A program made the position numbers and the translations under genes. Of a stretch of 64,000 nucleotides of DNA, positions 4,987 to 23,127 are shown one piece after another. This DNA comes from Bombella favorum (lineage in GTDB: Bacteria > Pseudomonadota > Alphaproteobacteria > Acetobacterales > Acetobacteraceae): positions 124,001-188,000 of the forward strand of contig NZ_NWUS01000002.1 in NCBI RefSeq assembly GCF_014048475.1. The letters run 5' to 3'. Each line of letters opens with the position of its first letter. Within the stretch, counting starts at the first letter, position 1. The notes below the pieces were generated by a model. It did not search any database. It was given only the letters and a program-made list of their open reading frames with translations, and was not told the origin of the DNA.

Positions 4987-7365
4987 TCAGTAATCCATGG
5001 TCAGACGACCAAGGAACGTCCGCCCCGGTGCCGGTGTGGCATAGCCCGTGAAAAGACTATTGTAATTCAAGCGGTTCGCCAGATTGTACCCGTTGAGGGA
5101 CACCTGCCAGTGCCGCCCAAAATGATGGGTGATGACGGAGTCAAAATCCACATTAGCGGGCACCTTGGCCGTGTTGTCGTTATTCAGATACACACCCTGA
5201 CGCCACGTCAGACCACCGCCGATAGTGAAGTTCCACGGCGTACCGGGAAAGGCCTCATAAGCAGACCAGAGCGTCGCCTGATTGTGCGGTACATACTGAA
5301 TCTGGTTACGCATCCGCCCGCCACCGTTGGAAGACGTTTTCGGATCATACAGCGCATAGGTGGCTGTGATATTCCAGCCCGGCAGGATCATCCCGCCAAG
5401 GGAAAGCTCCATCCCCTGGTTACGCTGCTGGGCACCCGTGTTGATGGTAGAGTTAGAAACCGGGTCGGTCGTCAGGGCATTGCTCTTGTCCAGACGGAAG
5501 AGCGAGATGGTCGCCCCCAGACGGTCATGAAGCAAGCTGAACTTGCTACCCACTTCATACAGACGAGCACGCTGCGGGCGTGTATCCACAGTTCCTTGTG
5601 CCCCCGGACGGACTGGTATGGCCCCGCTGGTCACATACATACCCGTCGGTGTGGTAGAACTGGCATAGGTGAAATAAACCGTCTGCCATTTTGTCGGGGT
5701 CAGCACGAGGCTAGCCGTGGGATTAAAGGTATTGGTCGTCTGTGGGAAACTCCTATCCGGATTATTCGGCAGGTTAGACAGGCCATACGCCCGGTAATTG
5801 CTCTGCCAGCGGTCCCAGCGGAACCCACCTTTAATAGACGCCCATTTCGTCAACCAGATCTGATCATACAGGAAGATACCTGTATCAAACCCATACCCCC
5901 GGCTGTTCGGCTTTTTACCGATACCCGCAATATTCGGCATAGAATCCGCTTTGGCTGAAACACGACGGACCATAGCATCTGGCACATTATACGGGTCCGG
6001 GTTCAGCATGTTCGCCGTTGGGACTGCCTTAGTAAGAGACACACCCTGATACGTATCCTGCTGACGGGAATCATGGACATATTCCATATCAAACCCAGTC
6101 ACGACCTGATGCCGCAAGAAACCCGTATTGAAGTCAGCCTGCAAGGAAGCAACATCCTGAAAGGACCAGCTATTCTGCTTATAGGGCAGCGGCACACTTC
6201 CGTTAGTATTGCGCGTGATCACACCAGCACCGTAATTGCCACTATTCAGCGCATTAACGCATTTCGTACCGCACTGAACCTTGGAGGCCTCAAAGTCACG
6301 GCTATACTCACCAAAGCGCAAGTCGTTATGGAATGTCAGGTGGTCATTGAAGATGTGCTTTAACCGCAGCGTCTCCATCGTATCATCGGTATGGTTGTGG
6401 TCCTGCTGCTTGCCATACCAGTTCTGGCGGGGCACACCATATTCCGAGATCGGCCGCCCATAAGCGGAACCACGGGCCTTGATCACCGGCATACCGTAAT
6501 CGGGCACGCTATTATCCGTCTCATGCATGACCTGAAGTACGACGGTCGTCTTCGTCCCCAGCCCAAAAGCGATGGAGGGGGCAATACCCCAGCGATGATC
6601 CCAGACATGGTCTCGCCCGACTACATCATTAGACGCACCCAGCCCCTCCAAACGGAAAGCCGTTGTATCGTTGATGCGCTTATTTACATCCACCGTGCCA
6701 CGGAAATAATTCGCAGACCCACCGCTGAAATCCACATTATAGTGGTCATTAACAGTTGGCGTCTTCGTGACGACATTGATGGCACCGCCTGTCGTCCCAT
6801 TACCAAAAACCTGTGAGGACGGCCCCTTGATAACGTTGACCGAATCATAATTGAAGCTATCACGAGAATAGACGCCAAAGTCCCGCAAGCCATCTTCATA
6901 GATGTCATTCTGTGCCGGGAATCCACGGATGAGGAACTGATCCCCATTCAAACCGCCAGCCCCTTCCCCAACGGACGCCGTAATGCCGGGGACATTGCGC
7001 AAGGCTTCATCCAGCGACTTGACGTTCTGCTGCTTGATGAGTTCACGGGGTACCACATCAATCGTCTGCGGCGTGTGCATGACATCCTGCGGCAGACGCC
7101 CCATGTCGTTGCTGGCATGCATCGTATTGAATGGATGGCCGATAACATGGATGCGCTCCACATGCGTAGCCTGAACACCAGTCTGTGTTGGTGCCTGGGC
7201 TGCTGCCTTAGATGCCGGTGCCCCAGCGTTATGCGTCTCCTCTGCTGTAGCCGAGCCAGCCTGATGTGGGGCTGTTGTATCAGCGGCATATGCGCCCCCA
7301 GCGACACCCCCCAGTGTCAGAACAGCCGAAGCCGGCTTGAGGCATTGATGGATAAAACGGCTCAT
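4987..7365 (-). CDS. fiu: TonB-dependent catecholate siderophore receptor, Fiu-like, copy 1
   Basis: Outer-membrane ferric-siderophore receptor. The 792-residue product starts MSRFI with a signal peptide ending AYA (about residue 27). It has a plug domain with FLIRGFPAQNDIYEDGLRD and NVIKGPSSQVFGNGTTGGAINVV, and a barrel ending in tyrosine. The ATG at 7365 follows GGAG with 9-nt spacing, and the same MSRFI start is kept in all three paralogues; the longer frame begins with GTG. A near-perfect Fur box lies 59 bp upstream. It is the first of three tandem paralogues; most of its first third is almost identical in nucleotide sequence to copy 2, while surface-loop regions differ, suggesting different siderophores. 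The gene symbol marks family only. Confidence 0.9.
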   Translation of the reverse strand: MSRFIHQCLKPASAVLTLGGVAGGAYAADTTAPHQAGSATAEETHNAGAPASKAAAQAPTQTGVQATHVERIHVIGHPFNTMHASNDMGRLPQDVMHTPQTIDVVPRELIKQQNVKSLDEALRNVPGITASVGEGAGGLNGDQFLIRGFPAQNDIYEDGLRDFGVYSRDSFNYDSVNVIKGPSSQVFGNGTTGGAINVVTKTPTVNDHYNVDFSGGSANYFRGTVDVNKRINDTTAFRLEGLGASNDVVGRDHVWDHRWGIAPSIAFGLGTKTTVVLQVMHETDNSVPDYGMPVIKARGSAYGRPISEYGVPRQNWYGKQQDHNHTDDTMETLRLKHIFNDHLTFHNDLRFGEYSRDFEASKVQCGTKCVNALNSGNYGAGVITRNTNGSVPLPYKQNSWSFQDVASLQADFNTGFLRHQVVTGFDMEYVHDSRQQDTYQGVSLTKAVPTANMLNPDPYNVPDAMVRRVSAKADSMPNIAGIGKKPNSRGYGFDTGIFLYDQIWLTKWASIKGGFRWDRWQSNYRAYGLSNLPNNPDRSFPQTTNTFNPTASLVLTPTKWQTVYFTYASSTTPTGMYVTSGAIPVRPGAQGTVDTRPQRARLYEVGSKFSLLHDRLGATISLFRLDKSNALTTDPVSNSTINTGAQQRNQGMELSLGGMILPGWNITATYALYDPKTSSNGGGRMRNQIQYVPHNQATLWSAYEAFPGTPWNFTIGGGLTWRQGVYLNNDNTAKVPANVDFDSVITHHFGRHWQVSLNGYNLANRLNYNSLFTGYATPAPGRTFLGRLTMDY
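6781..7179 (-). repeat. Near-identical 399-nt block, copy A (pairs with 9516-9914)
   Basis: Aligned without gaps to 9516-9914, I count 8 differences in 399 nt. The adjoining 60 nt (6721-6780 against 9456-9515) already show 9 differences, and the signal-peptide-to-linker region on the other side is unrelated at most positions. The block codes for the TonB-box region and most of the plug domain. Sharp edges of identity suggest recent gene conversion between receptor copies 1 and 2 or strong constraint on this part. Confidence 0.85.
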
Positions 7366-18085: not shown

Positions 18086-18401
18086 GTCCACGTAGCTCAG
18101 CAGGATAGAGCACAGGATTCCTAATCGCAATTGGGCACCGGGATGGCAAACCACCCGGTGAATTCGCTCAAAGTCGGGGAACGCTAACGCCGTTTTGGCC
18201 AAGCCAATCCCGAGCCAAGCCTACCCTATTAGTGGGCAGGAAGGTGTAGAGACTGTACGGGCGACACCGTGGCGGGCAGATGCCTGTGGTGAAGAGACAG
18301 TCCAGACCACGAACGGCCCTTCTACCAAAAAGGAGCCGGCGGTGAAAACCGAAGTGGTATGAATCCTGGGGTCGAGGGTTCGAATCCCCCCGTGGACACC
18401 A
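18086..18401 (+). tRNA. tRNA-Arg(CCU), interrupted by a group I intron
   Basis: Exons 18086-18122 and 18362-18401 join to a 77-nt tRNA. Acceptor stem GTCCACG pairs with CGTGGAC; D-stem GCTC/GAGC; anticodon stem CAGGA/TCCTG around the 7-nt loop TTCCTAA, giving anticodon CCU; T-loop TTCGAAT; CCA is encoded. The T-stem has one A-C mismatch (GAGGG against CCCCC), which is unusual but tolerable. CCU reads the AGG arginine codon. The gene cannot fold as a tRNA until the intron after the third anticodon base is removed. Confidence 0.93.
18123..18361 (+). ncRNA. Self-splicing group I intron in tRNA-Arg(CCU)
   Basis: The intron is 239 nt and has no ORF. P1 is clear: exon CCU plus intron AAU pair with AUUGGG across a CGCA loop, with the required U-G wobble at the 5' splice site. 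The last intron base is G (18361). P2 is CACCGGG (18136-18142) with CCCGGTG (18154-18160). The R element (GTGTAGAGACTGTACGG from 18244) and S element (GAAGAGACAGTC 18291-18302) form P7 through GACTGT/ACAGTC. A GAAA-capped hairpin CGGT/ACCG (18340-18351) is near the 3' end. Introns at this tRNA are known from Agrobacterium and some other alphaproteobacteria; this one is consistent with that small subgroup. Confidence 0.93.
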
Positions 18402-18472: not shown

Positions 18473-19036
18473 ATGACCCAACGAGATACTGAGGCCCTGC
18501 GGGCTTTTCAGGAATGGTTTCTTTCCATATCCGGCCCCGGCCTGACACACATTCCCCTCCACCAGCCGACCGCCCACAAAGACGGTATGATTGCCATCAC
18601 TCTCTATCGGCGTAACGGCTATCAGGCGGAACTCTGCTACATTCCACAGGGTCGGAAGTATAGCTTTGCCTTTCCTGAGGAAAAGTCCGCCATCATGGCT
18701 TTCCTTGGTGGCTCGTTTGACTGTGATACATCTACAGTACCTAATTTTATTGAATCACATGGGCGTGATCTTGTACCAGATCGGCTCCTGGAACATCGAG
18801 GAACCGACCCCCATAAACCACGACTGGAACAGGCACACCCATCGCTGAAGCTGGCAGAGGAACTACGCACCATAGACCTTACAAACGGCAGTGCAGCCCG
18901 TGTTGTCTTCTTTTCCCCCCAAGGGAATGGTGTTGTTTTGGTCTGTAGTTTTTATGAAGACGACACCGACCCTAGCAGTGTGAACTATCTCCAAATGTTA
19001 TCTGAGGGATATAGCGATTCCTCTGGAGATTCTTAA
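18473..19036 (+). CDS. Uncharacterised protein, 187 residues
   Basis: I do not recognise this protein. The ATG at 18473 follows a good AAGGA. The product is soluble, with no signal peptide or membrane segment, and is mildly acidic. It looks like two parts: residues 1-95 with a beta-rich pattern (IAITLYRRNGYQAELCYIP, YSFAFPEEKSAIMAFLGGSF) and residues 120-180 (ARVVFFSPQGNGVVLVCSFYED). It lies between the intron-bearing tRNA-Arg and the giant Hint protein, 62 bp before the latter on the same strand, so the two may be co-transcribed. Function is open. Confidence 0.7.
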   Translation: MTQRDTEALRAFQEWFLSISGPGLTHIPLHQPTAHKDGMIAITLYRRNGYQAELCYIPQGRKYSFAFPEEKSAIMAFLGGSFDCDTSTVPNFIESHGRDLVPDRLLEHRGTDPHKPRLEQAHPSLKLAEELRTIDLTNGSAARVVFFSPQGNGVVLVCSFYEDDTDPSSVNYLQMLSEGYSDSSGDS

Positions 19037-19098: not shown

Positions 19099-22000
19099 AT
19101 GGCCAATTTCTACACTTACGACCCCAGTTACGATAACCTTTTCGCCATTGATAAAGACAGCGCTCCTAGCGGATGGCGTAAGGTTCTCAGAGGTAACACA
19201 GTCCACGATAATGATACGTCTGGCAATTATGTCAGTGGCACCGGCCCCTTAACAGGTAAGAACAGCCTTCTTTATTCATATAATGGCCTTTCACAGAACG
19301 GGATTGCCGTTGATGGTGGCTCCATAGCTATTATTGGGTCGAACGGCCTAATGACAGGTGCCACGGCACTTTATAATGCCTCTATTGAAGCTCTGGGTGG
19401 TGGCGTCATCTCCCGTGGGATTGTCGGCTCATCAGGGGCCATCTTTGCTGGCGGTGTGACCGGTGCCGGTGCTAACGGAAAGTACGTTAGTGCGGGTGGT
19501 ACTGCGTTAGACCCCGTTGTCGGCTCCGGTGGGTATGCGCTTGCTGGCGGTGGTGCGGCCGACTTCGTCGTTAAAGGCTATACGGTGAATGGGTCCGGTG
19601 GTCTGATCAGCGGCGGGACGTTCAACCCGGGCAGCCTTTTCGGGATTGGTAACGGGGGAGTAGGTAGCGGCGGAACGCTCTTCGGTAGTCAGGCCGTTTT
19701 CTCCGGTGGGACCTCCAAAGATCAGCTATTTGCCCATAGCCGGGGTATCCAGCTGGTCCTCAGTAAGGGTTTGTCTTCCAACGCTACCATATTGGGTGGT
19801 ACGCTTCTCAACTCTGGCGGAACCACCGCCGGTGCTACCATCAACAGTGGTGGGACAATTCAGGTCACCGGTGGAACGTACTTCAGCTGGCTTAACGCTA
19901 ACTACGCCCTGCAATACGGTAGCTATGGTTTCGGCTCCTCTTATGACGATGTCGTTACATCCGGTGCGACTGAGATCGTCGGTCGTGATGGGACCGTAAC
20001 GCGCTCCGTCCTCTCAAAAGGGGCGCAGGGAACGGTTCTTTATGGCGGGACAAGCGTGGCCCCCAACATCACCGGTGGTACAGAGACTGTTAGTTCCGGC
20101 GGGACGCTCCTCAATGGGGCTGTCAGAAATGGTGGTTCTGCCCTTGTTGCCTCGGGTGGCTACATTTCTGGCCTGAGTGCCAGCCAGGGCTATGCTGAAA
20201 TTAAATCCGGTGGCGTTGGGTCTGATTTTGTCGCCAACAATGGCGGTACCATCCAGGTCGATAACGGCGGTAGCGCCAGTCACCTCGTTGTAAGTAACGG
20301 CGGTACCCTGACACTCCTCTCCGGCGGGACCATCAGAAACGGTGCTACCATCATCACCAATGCGACTGACCGCACCGTCTTCCCGGGCGGGGCATCGGTA
20401 GACTATATCGTGGCCAGTGGTGGTACATCGGTTATCACGTCCGGTGCTACAATTGGTGGCAACGCTGTCTATGCTGTTGGTAGTGGTACGGCTCTTGTTT
20501 CCGGCTCGGGTGCTGCCGTTGGTACTGCTATGGCCGGCTCTGGGTCGGACCCCAATAACGCTTCCGCCACCGGCGGTGCTGTTGTTATCGGCAACGGGGG
20601 TGTTGTCTCCTCCGCAACAGCCCAGGTGAATGGTGCCGTTGTCCTCGGCTCTGGAGGGGCGATCGCTAACGGGCTCTCCATCGTTGGCGGTACGGGCAGC
20701 CTCATGTCCGGTGGCTTGATCAACAACAGTATACCGCTACAGGTCTCTGCTGGCACTGCGACGGTTGCACAGGGGTCCTGGTATGGCGCCCCAACAACCA
20801 CATCGGCTGTTGGTGGGTCCCTGTTTGTTGATTCCGGCTACAGCTTCAAGGAAATTGATGTTGGCAGCAATGGGACAGCCACCATTAATGGCGCCGATGT
20901 CTTCACCATAAACGTTGCCCCTAGTGCTGTTGACAACATTCGCGGCACAGGAACAATCCAGTACCTTTACGCCTCGAACGGGACGAATAACATCTCCAGT
21001 CAGGCTATCGTAGGTACCCTCAACGGAACGGGCGGAACGAACGACGTCTCCAGTGGGGCCTACGTCGTTAACCTCAATGCGACCGGCGGAACGAATACTA
21101 TTTACGCCGCAGGCACCGTTGGGACTTTGACAGCCTCGGGTGCGACGAACACCATCTCCGGTAGGGGTGTCATCGGTGACCTCAACGCAACGGGCGGGAC
21201 GAACAATCTTACCAGCGGGGCTATCCTCAACCTCAACGCTACGAATGCAACGAACCTTATTTCCGCTGGGGCGTTCCTCTACACCTTCAACGCAATCGGT
21301 GGCGTAAATAGCGTCAGTTCTGGTGCTCGCATTACCACCATGCTCAGTGCCAGCCAGGGCGCGTCTCTCGCCATTGCCAGCGGTGCTGTAGTACCGAATG
21401 TCACGCTTAATGGCGTCAATACGGACATCCCTCAGGGTGGTGCAGGCGTTAAGGTCCTTTCTGCTGTCAATGGGGCAACGAGCATCATCAACTCCGGTGC
21501 TCAGCTCAACAGCGTGTACCTCTCATCCGGTCAGGCCACTGTCGCCTCTGGTGCGTTCATTAGCCGCCTGACCATCATGAGCGGGGCTTCCGGTATTCTG
21601 AACTCCGGGGCATCTGTCCAGCACATCGACGTTGCTAAGGGCGGATGGGTCAGCGGGGCACGCATTGCCAATGGTGGCGAGCTGACTGTGTCCTCTGGCG
21701 GTACGGCTGTGCAGACCCTCGTCACGTACGATGCGGGTTCTGGCCAGCATGTTTCCAGCAGCCCCAACACCATGGTTCAGTCCGGCGGTACCCTGTCCGG
21801 CGCTACAATTATCGGTGCCACAAGTAGTGCTGGAACAAACAACCTGGGCGGCCTGCTGAACATTGATTCTGGTGCTGTACTCGTCAACACCTCCATGGGC
21901 TACAACGCCCGTATCCGTGTTGCTGGGCTGAAATACAGCAATTCCGGCAGTGTTAGCCTCAAACAGGGTATCCTGACGGTTTCCGAGAACGGCCAGACTT

Positions 22001-23127
22001 GGCAGATGAACCTGACAGGTAACTACGCTGACAACGGGTTCATCATCAATGATGACGGAAACGGCAATACCGTTATTGTCTATCAGAAGTGCTTCCTTGC
22101 TGGCAGCATGATCCGCACCCCCAAGGGGGAGAAAGCTGTGGAGCGGCTGCGTAAGGGCGAGCAGATCTGCGTTTTTAAAGACGGGAAAGAAGACGTTCGC
22201 GAGATTACGGCCGTCATCCAGCGTCGTGCCCGTGTTAACACGTCCCAGCCTGAGGATATGGCCGGTTGGTCCGTCATCGTGGCGAAGGATGCCTTTGGCG
22301 CAGGTCTGCCCAATAAGGACCTTTCTGTCACGCCGGAACATTGCTTCTACTTCGAAGGACGCTTCGTTCCTGCCCGTATGCTCGTCAACGGCACATCAAT
22401 CCGCTACGATCACAGCCAGGTAGAGTATGACTACTACCATGTGCAGACGGCGCCTCATTCTGTCATCTGGGCCAATGATGTTTTGACAGAAAGCTGGTTG
22501 GATACAGACGAGGAAGAACTCTACAAGCCAGACGGTTCCTCGGAAGACATCCTGAGCTTGGCAGAGCGTCAGCGGCTTAACTGGGACGAACATGCTGCAG
22601 CACCGCTGGATGTTTCGCAGGCCTTCGTGAAACCACTTCACGAGACCTTCGCTGCACGGGCGGCTGAACTGGGCATCACAAAGGTCGAAACGGCTGCTGA
22701 TACCTCCCATGATGGCATGACAGCGGACCCTGCCCCCTATATCCGGCTGGAAGATGGGCGGACTATTCGCCCGCAGCGGCATGAAGCAGGCCGTTATCTC
22801 TTCTCGCTGCCTGCTCATGCACGGCGTGTCATGCTTGGCTCTCGGACGTTCCGTCCTTCCGAAAATATCGGGCCACATATGGATGACCGCCGTGAGCTCG
22901 GTATGCTGGTTGGTCAGGTCTCTGTCTGGGCTGGAAGCCATGAACATGTCATTACCCGCCATCTGACAGAACGGCACCTGAAGGGCTGGGATGTTATCGA
23001 GGCCGGGCCGCACCGCTGGACGCAGGGAGAAGCAGAACTTCTTCTGCATGATGCTCCGTCCGCTAATGTTGGCCAGAACATGCTCAGCATCGAAGTACAG
23101 GCCGGCGGTCCTTACCGGCAGGCTTAA
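19099..23127 (+). CDS. Giant glycine/serine/threonine repeat protein with C-terminal Hint domain
   Basis: This 1342-residue protein has no signal peptide at its N-terminus (MANFYTYDPSYDNLF). Residues about 60-600 are AIDA-like beta-solenoid repeats rich in SGGT/NGGT. Residues about 614-745 hold a different repeat of roughly 21 residues built around LNATGGTN and ISSGA. More solenoid follows to about residue 990. A Hint domain begins at Cys998 (CFLAGSMIRT) with the TPEHCFYFEGRFVPA block and HSVIWANDVLTESWLD, as in the Hint_2 family. The last 110 residues contain DDRRELGML, a segment often found after such domains. There is no autotransporter barrel. Hint domains cleave or splice proteins, so self-processing of the solenoid is plausible. 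Surface adhesin or matrix roles are inference. Confidence 0.85.
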   Translation: MANFYTYDPSYDNLFAIDKDSAPSGWRKVLRGNTVHDNDTSGNYVSGTGPLTGKNSLLYSYNGLSQNGIAVDGGSIAIIGSNGLMTGATALYNASIEALGGGVISRGIVGSSGAIFAGGVTGAGANGKYVSAGGTALDPVVGSGGYALAGGGAADFVVKGYTVNGSGGLISGGTFNPGSLFGIGNGGVGSGGTLFGSQAVFSGGTSKDQLFAHSRGIQLVLSKGLSSNATILGGTLLNSGGTTAGATINSGGTIQVTGGTYFSWLNANYALQYGSYGFGSSYDDVVTSGATEIVGRDGTVTRSVLSKGAQGTVLYGGTSVAPNITGGTETVSSGGTLLNGAVRNGGSALVASGGYISGLSASQGYAEIKSGGVGSDFVANNGGTIQVDNGGSASHLVVSNGGTLTLLSGGTIRNGATIITNATDRTVFPGGASVDYIVASGGTSVITSGATIGGNAVYAVGSGTALVSGSGAAVGTAMAGSGSDPNNASATGGAVVIGNGGVVSSATAQVNGAVVLGSGGAIANGLSIVGGTGSLMSGGLINNSIPLQVSAGTATVAQGSWYGAPTTTSAVGGSLFVDSGYSFKEIDVGSNGTATINGADVFTINVAPSAVDNIRGTGTIQYLYASNGTNNISSQAIVGTLNGTGGTNDVSSGAYVVNLNATGGTNTIYAAGTVGTLTASGATNTISGRGVIGDLNATGGTNNLTSGAILNLNATNATNLISAGAFLYTFNAIGGVNSVSSGARITTMLSASQGASLAIASGAVVPNVTLNGVNTDIPQGGAGVKVLSAVNGATSIINSGAQLNSVYLSSGQATVASGAFISRLTIMSGASGILNSGASVQHIDVAKGGWVSGARIANGGELTVSSGGTAVQTLVTYDAGSGQHVSSSPNTMVQSGGTLSGATIIGATSSAGTNNLGGLLNIDSGAVLVNTSMGYNARIRVAGLKYSNSGSVSLKQGILTVSENGQTWQMNLTGNYADNGFIINDDGNGNTVIVYQKCFLAGSMIRTPKGEKAVERLRKGEQICVFKDGKEDVREITAVIQRRARVNTSQPEDMAGWSVIVAKDAFGAGLPNKDLSVTPEHCFYFEGRFVPARMLVNGTSIRYDHSQVEYDYYHVQTAPHSVIWANDVLTESWLDTDEEELYKPDGSSEDILSLAERQRLNWDEHAAAPLDVSQAFVKPLHETFAARAAELGITKVETAADTSHDGMTADPAPYIRLEDGRTIRPQRHEAGRYLFSLPAHARRVMLGSRTFRPSENIGPHMDDRRELGMLVGQVSVWAGSHEHVITRHLTERHLKGWDVIEAGPHRWTQGEAELLLHDAPSANVGQNMLSIEVQAGGPYRQA

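Follow-up and report, generated by a model that had tools for sequence, protein, structure and literature searches.

Small group I introns of subgroup IC3 are known in bacterial tRNA genes such as the Agrobacterium tRNA-Arg(CCU) and Azoarcus tRNA-Ile genes. The intron that we describe here, from a 64,000-nucleotide stretch of the genome of Bombella favorum, an acetic acid bacterium associated with bees (the window), resembles these introns in its position in the anticodon loop, its size (theirs being ~200-250 nt), its L2 and L9 tetraloop hairpins, and the lack of both P5abc and an endonuclease. When likened to them by description, it differs in having an L2 loop of CAAA rather than GAAA and in a changed P8 receptor. 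Bacterial tRNA group I introns have been reviewed generally (PMC3984707), and this kind of intron is already known in the Acetobacteraceae: according to a footnote to Table 1 of the 2015 Asaia bogorensis genome paper, a group I intron-like sequence interrupts one tRNA(Arg) in Asaia, Acetobacter, Gluconobacter, Komagataeibacter and Gluconacetobacter (PMC4596401). These genera share with Bombella the family, the tRNA and the kind of insert, and a homologous intron was also present in the Asaia genome that we examined. However, the footnote deals with neither boundaries nor structure nor inheritance, and Bombella lies outside its table. We found no report on the Bombella intron in the open-licence literature.

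To define the gene, we ran ARAGORN in intron mode, which placed a tRNA-Arg(CCU) gene at 18086-18401 on the plus strand, interrupted by a 239-nt intron at 18123-18361 (output (cct)i(38,239)). The 5' exon (18086-18122), whose last bases are the anticodon CCT, and the 3' exon (18362-18401), which includes an encoded CCA, join into a 77-nt tRNA-Arg(CCU) with all stems complete, so that the insert sits immediately 3' of the anticodon. These boundaries agree base for base with an initial annotation made from the sequence alone, which had held that the exons yield a good 77-nt tRNA only without 18123-18361 and that the intron directly follows the last anticodon base. Its warning that standard tRNA finders may miss the gene also proved correct: it escaped both ARAGORN in default mode and the Rfam tRNA model when used at its gathering threshold, which shows why this tRNA can be absent from the default annotation of many acetic acid bacteria.

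The initial annotation had called the insert a group I intron and proposed an Rfam/Infernal search. In this search, the group I intron model RF00028 matched 18110-18320 with an E value of 7.8e-7 in 701 bases, though its 33.8 bits fall below the Rfam gathering score of 50, a threshold that is a curation choice and no structural feature. Across the 1.97-Mb genome this intron was the sole significant match (E 5.1e-7), the next having an E value of 1.42. The identification was further borne out by the structure, which covaries over 64 relatives.

The helices from P2 to P9.2 follow one another in the standard group I order on the plus strand. P1 (18120-18135) is formed by 18120-18125, i.e., CCU and, across the splice site, AAU, with 18130-18135 (AUUGGG), and its U.G pair at the 5' splice site and two C-G pairs were found in 64 of 64 aligned introns. 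By direct reading, the AUU of this guide (18130-18132) can also pair with the AAU of the 3' exon (18362-18364) as P10, and the guide therefore aligns both exons. The P2 hairpin (18136-18160; CACCGGG/CCCGGTG) carries the L2 loop at 18147-18150; 99.1% of its cells were paired in the alignment and five of its seven pairs showed changes on both sides. The 5' strand of P3 (18164-18169) pairs with 18259-18264 and includes three pairs with two-sided changes, and the segment 18174-18213 holds an invariant P4 (18174-18179/18208-18213) together with P5 and P5a, both of which covary. P6 and P6a occupy 18214-18245, with all six P6a pairs changed on both sides. P7 is formed by GACTGT (18251-18256) and ACAGTC (18297-18302); its first five pairs are invariant, and G18251 is expected by homology to be the G of the guanosine site. 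P8 (18265-18291) bears an altered tetraloop receptor (CCGUGG..UGUGG), as recognized by receptor comparison, and its distal register (helix 12) fits Bombella only, being paired in 38.9% of cells across the whole 64-row alignment. P9 (18306-18310/18354-18358), P9.1 and a GAAA-capped P9.2 (18340-18351) lie within 18306-18358, with P9.2 paired in 100% of cells and covarying at all four pairs, and the terminal guanosine (omega G) at 18361 was G in 100 of 100 relatives. Thus, each element that had been named at the outset was located here: a P1 with U-G at the splice site (then given no coordinates), a P7 built from the R and S elements, a P2 hairpin, a GAAA-capped hairpin and a final G.

Conservation of the fold was assessed with 64 relatives aligned with fixed ends, using 500 shuffles and slid registers as controls and five measures. 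The 69-pair structure, including the P3/P7 pseudoknot, was paired in 91.5% of cells, versus 81.5% in shuffled and 31-43% in slid alignments. Both sides had changed in 499 cells as compared with 158 in the shuffles, and 36 pairs showed such two-sided change. On each of the five measures the observed alignment exceeded all 500 shuffles, and it likewise exceeded every slid register. Among the core helices, P3, P4, P6 and the P8 stem were paired in 100% of cells and P7 in 90%. The guide sequence A[T/C]TGGG was present in 100 of 100 introns (ATTGGG in 83, ACTGGG in 17). Intron length ranged from 213 to 297 nt across all 100 relatives parsed, which leaves no room for a homing endonuclease; in the 239-nt Bombella intron none was found, and the overlapping minus-strand ORFs had no Pfam match.

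The one peculiarity of the Bombella intron concerns the putative L2-P8 contact. No GNRA-type L2 was seen in the genus Bombella, where the loop was CAAA in 11 of 11 genomes, as opposed to GAAA in every other intron that was parsed. At the third P8 receptor position, the 64-row alignment shows U (CCU) in all GAAA introns and G or A in the CAAA introns. The latter form one clade, and these changes therefore represent one event or one event series rather than an independent correlation. The sequences suggest that the contact was lost or replaced in Bombella. Docking of L2 into P8 is known from Azoarcus. Tentatively, and with less than even confidence, we suggest that an ancestral contact between a GAAA L2 and an 11-nt-type P8 receptor was dismantled in two steps and then gave way to a different contact or to reliance on a host protein. 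In this scheme, the first step would have been a receptor change, to the UUGG/UGUGG-like form of Saccharibacter and Gluconobacter with GAAA kept, and the second a change of L2 to CAAA and of the receptor's U to G or A. The altered contact could entail weaker folding or a need for protein, and it offers a ready test of tetraloop-receptor evolution.

To determine whether the split gene is the only source of this tRNA, we classified the remaining 51 tRNA matches in the genome, a set that lacks the rRNA-operon tRNAs; tRNA-Ile(GAU) and tRNA-Ala(UGC) were absent, presumably residing in rRNA operons at contig ends. No second CCT anticodon was found among the 52 tRNA genes of the assembly, a list that is nearly, but not fully, closed. 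A second intact tRNA-Arg(CCU), which the initial annotation had named as evidence against its reading, was thus not among them, and its statement that functional tRNA depends on splicing holds for this tRNA, the split gene being the sole tRNA-Arg(CCU) found. The other arginine tRNAs present were tRNA-Arg(UCU), tRNA-Arg(CCG) and two copies of tRNA-Arg(ACG). AGG, the codon to which tRNA-Arg(CCU) is dedicated, is rare, with 8 occurrences among the 3516 codons of seven nearby ORFs. It might also be read by tRNA-Arg(UCU), so that the cell itself need not depend on splicing.

The LeuRS encoded next to the gene shares 95% identity with its Bombella apis MRM1 counterpart, and the same intron was present at the identical site in each of the 11 genomes sampled from the genus. 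The intron model matched 194 of 396 Acetobacteraceae genomes. At least in several genomes, the weaker matches (~1e-40 to 1e-50) are probably introns of other tRNAs, since the genomes concerned also have an uninterrupted tRNA-Arg(CCU). When 150 genomes were compared, by our own count of the rows listed 68 had an uninterrupted tRNA-Arg(CCU) gene and none of these had a model match better than 1e-60, i.e., the intron and the uninterrupted gene were mutually exclusive. Roughly half of the sampled Acetobacteraceae have a homologous intron at the same site, and most others have the uninterrupted gene. Both states occurred within one genus in several cases, at least in genera g4, g17, g21, g36, g68 and g76 (genus codes). 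The expectation that this intron would add a lineage was not upheld, because the intron occurs in about half of the sampled family members and figures in the PMC4596401 footnote, so that nothing is added at family level. The initial annotation had also described introns at this tRNA as sporadic in alphaproteobacteria; in the Bombella-Commensalibacter part of the family the intron is instead constant and inherited. With several genera that have both states, the family offers a deep natural series that may show how an endonuclease-free selfish RNA persists, is precisely lost or moves with its tRNA gene.

To distinguish inheritance from movement, a comparison that had been proposed with the first description of the locus, intron and LeuRS trees were compared for 13 named or window taxa. 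Eight of the 10 splits were common to both trees, including those that unite Bombella, Bombella with Saccharibacter, and both with Gluconobacter, and this congruence indicates that the intron was inherited in Bombella. Transfer of the intron into Bombella was considered and rejected on the same grounds. In a tree of 97 introns, the genus Bombella was recovered as a single clade with an SH-aLRT of 98, and the acetic acid bacteria made up a starred group of 55 rows. Relative to leuS, the split tRNA is on the upstream side in Bombella, Saccharibacter and Gluconobacter and on the downstream side in Acetobacter, Komagataeibacter, Gluconacetobacter and Commensalibacter; the gene switched sides of leuS with the intron retained.

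Two genomes of a family outside the Acetobacteraceae (family f45; L235 and L237) have introns that are nested among those of the Acetobacteraceae and sit in exons of the same kind, and transfer thus does occur elsewhere, with the same exons and introns. Furthermore, the anticodon stem was CAGGA/TCCTG in 102 of 102 intron-bearing genes examined in the family, and either CAGGA or CCAGA, in similar numbers, in uninterrupted genes. We infer either that the split gene moves as one unit or that gain and loss are accompanied by exon replacement. No similar sequence was found in phages, and viral contigs had no match for the neighbouring DUF3576 gene.

With high confidence, we favor as the best explanation for the whole an inherited self-splicing group I intron that yields the only tRNA-Arg(CCU). 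The gene structure with its exact boundaries, the conserved covarying fold, the sole copy and the inheritance in this part of the family are the observations on which this explanation is built. By analogy with the known group I mechanism, we infer catalysis, guanosine dependence and splicing in the cell; the insert almost certainly cuts itself out. The tRNA-Arg(CCU) gene would be transcribed together with a self-splicing intron of the small tRNA type; guanosine bound in P7 would attack after the U of the anticodon CCU, held in place by the U.G pair of P1; and the freed 5' exon would in turn attack just 3' of G18361, so that CCU is ligated to AAU with both exon ends held by the guide AUUGGG. 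The product would be the sole tRNA-Arg(CCU) of the cell. The intron, which encodes no protein, is unable to home by itself and descends from an ancestor that Bombella shares with other acetic acid bacteria.

Alternatively, the intron might be degenerate, and either be spliced only with host proteins or reside in a pseudogene while tRNA-Arg(UCU) reads AGG. The altered L2 loop and P8 receptor, the presence of tRNA-Arg(UCU) and the rarity of AGG would all fit such decay, but the core helices are all intact, the tRNA stems are perfect, and the presence of the intron in every Bombella-genus genome is difficult to reconcile with a dead insert, which would decay; we therefore regard this as very unlikely. 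Even less probable is a recent horizontal arrival of the split tRNA gene in Bombella, because intron and LeuRS phylogenies agree for Bombella, Saccharibacter, Gluconobacter and other named genera, although the example of family f45 demonstrates that transfer does happen elsewhere. The single-sequence fold z-score of the intron region was just -3.3, a value that by itself might leave room for chance folding of intergenic DNA flanked by two tRNA-like halves. However, this idea is refuted by the covariation in 64 relatives, and the exact joining of the exons and the model match in nearly half of the family genomes (194/396) likewise oppose it, which leaves it with a negligible probability.

Two ORFs lie downstream of the split gene. 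A 187-aa ORF (18473-19036) directly after the tRNA had no match in Pfam and PDB searches, and a repetitive, Gly/Ser-rich ORF of 1342 aa (19099-23127), just downstream of the tRNA, has a C-terminal Hint domain (PF13403) and looks like a large surface protein.

In a plasmid search, the Bombella split tRNA gene matched about 1,280 resistance plasmids, on which a complete tRNA-Leu(UAA) is interrupted by a group I intron of this same kind, 213 nt in length, e.g. pCTX-M3 (NC_004464.2) at 5926-6224. This gene lies between a tmrB-like gene adjoining aac(3)-IId and small ORFs adjoining ISCfr1, and it was found in 635 of 5,426 complete E. coli genomes. Among the matches listed, none was annotated there except for one hypothetical protein in Acinetobacter. 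The plasmid intron matches the intron model with 175-179 bits and is ~75% identical to that of Bombella over the core, but it interrupts a different tRNA at a different insertion site. Among the chromosomes sampled, those nearest to it are alphaproteobacterial, with 86% identity along the entire gene; in these nearest genomes the neighbouring tmrB-like gene was absent, and an AAC(3) with 58% identity was present in one of six. We found no paper on this split tRNA-Leu(UAA), a weak argument for its novelty. The gene would provide a naturally occurring group I intron in a substantial fraction of the E. coli isolates with complete genomes.

Finally, the intron model matched 48 of 386 Alphaproteobacteria genomes, in tRNA-Leu(UAA), tRNA-Arg(CCU) and probably other tRNAs, and ARAGORN often misnamed the split tRNA in these matches. 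One contig (G607:C76) had two matches, at 1892-2082 and 2327-2598, ~250 bases apart, which might be either twin introns or a pair of consecutive split tRNAs.
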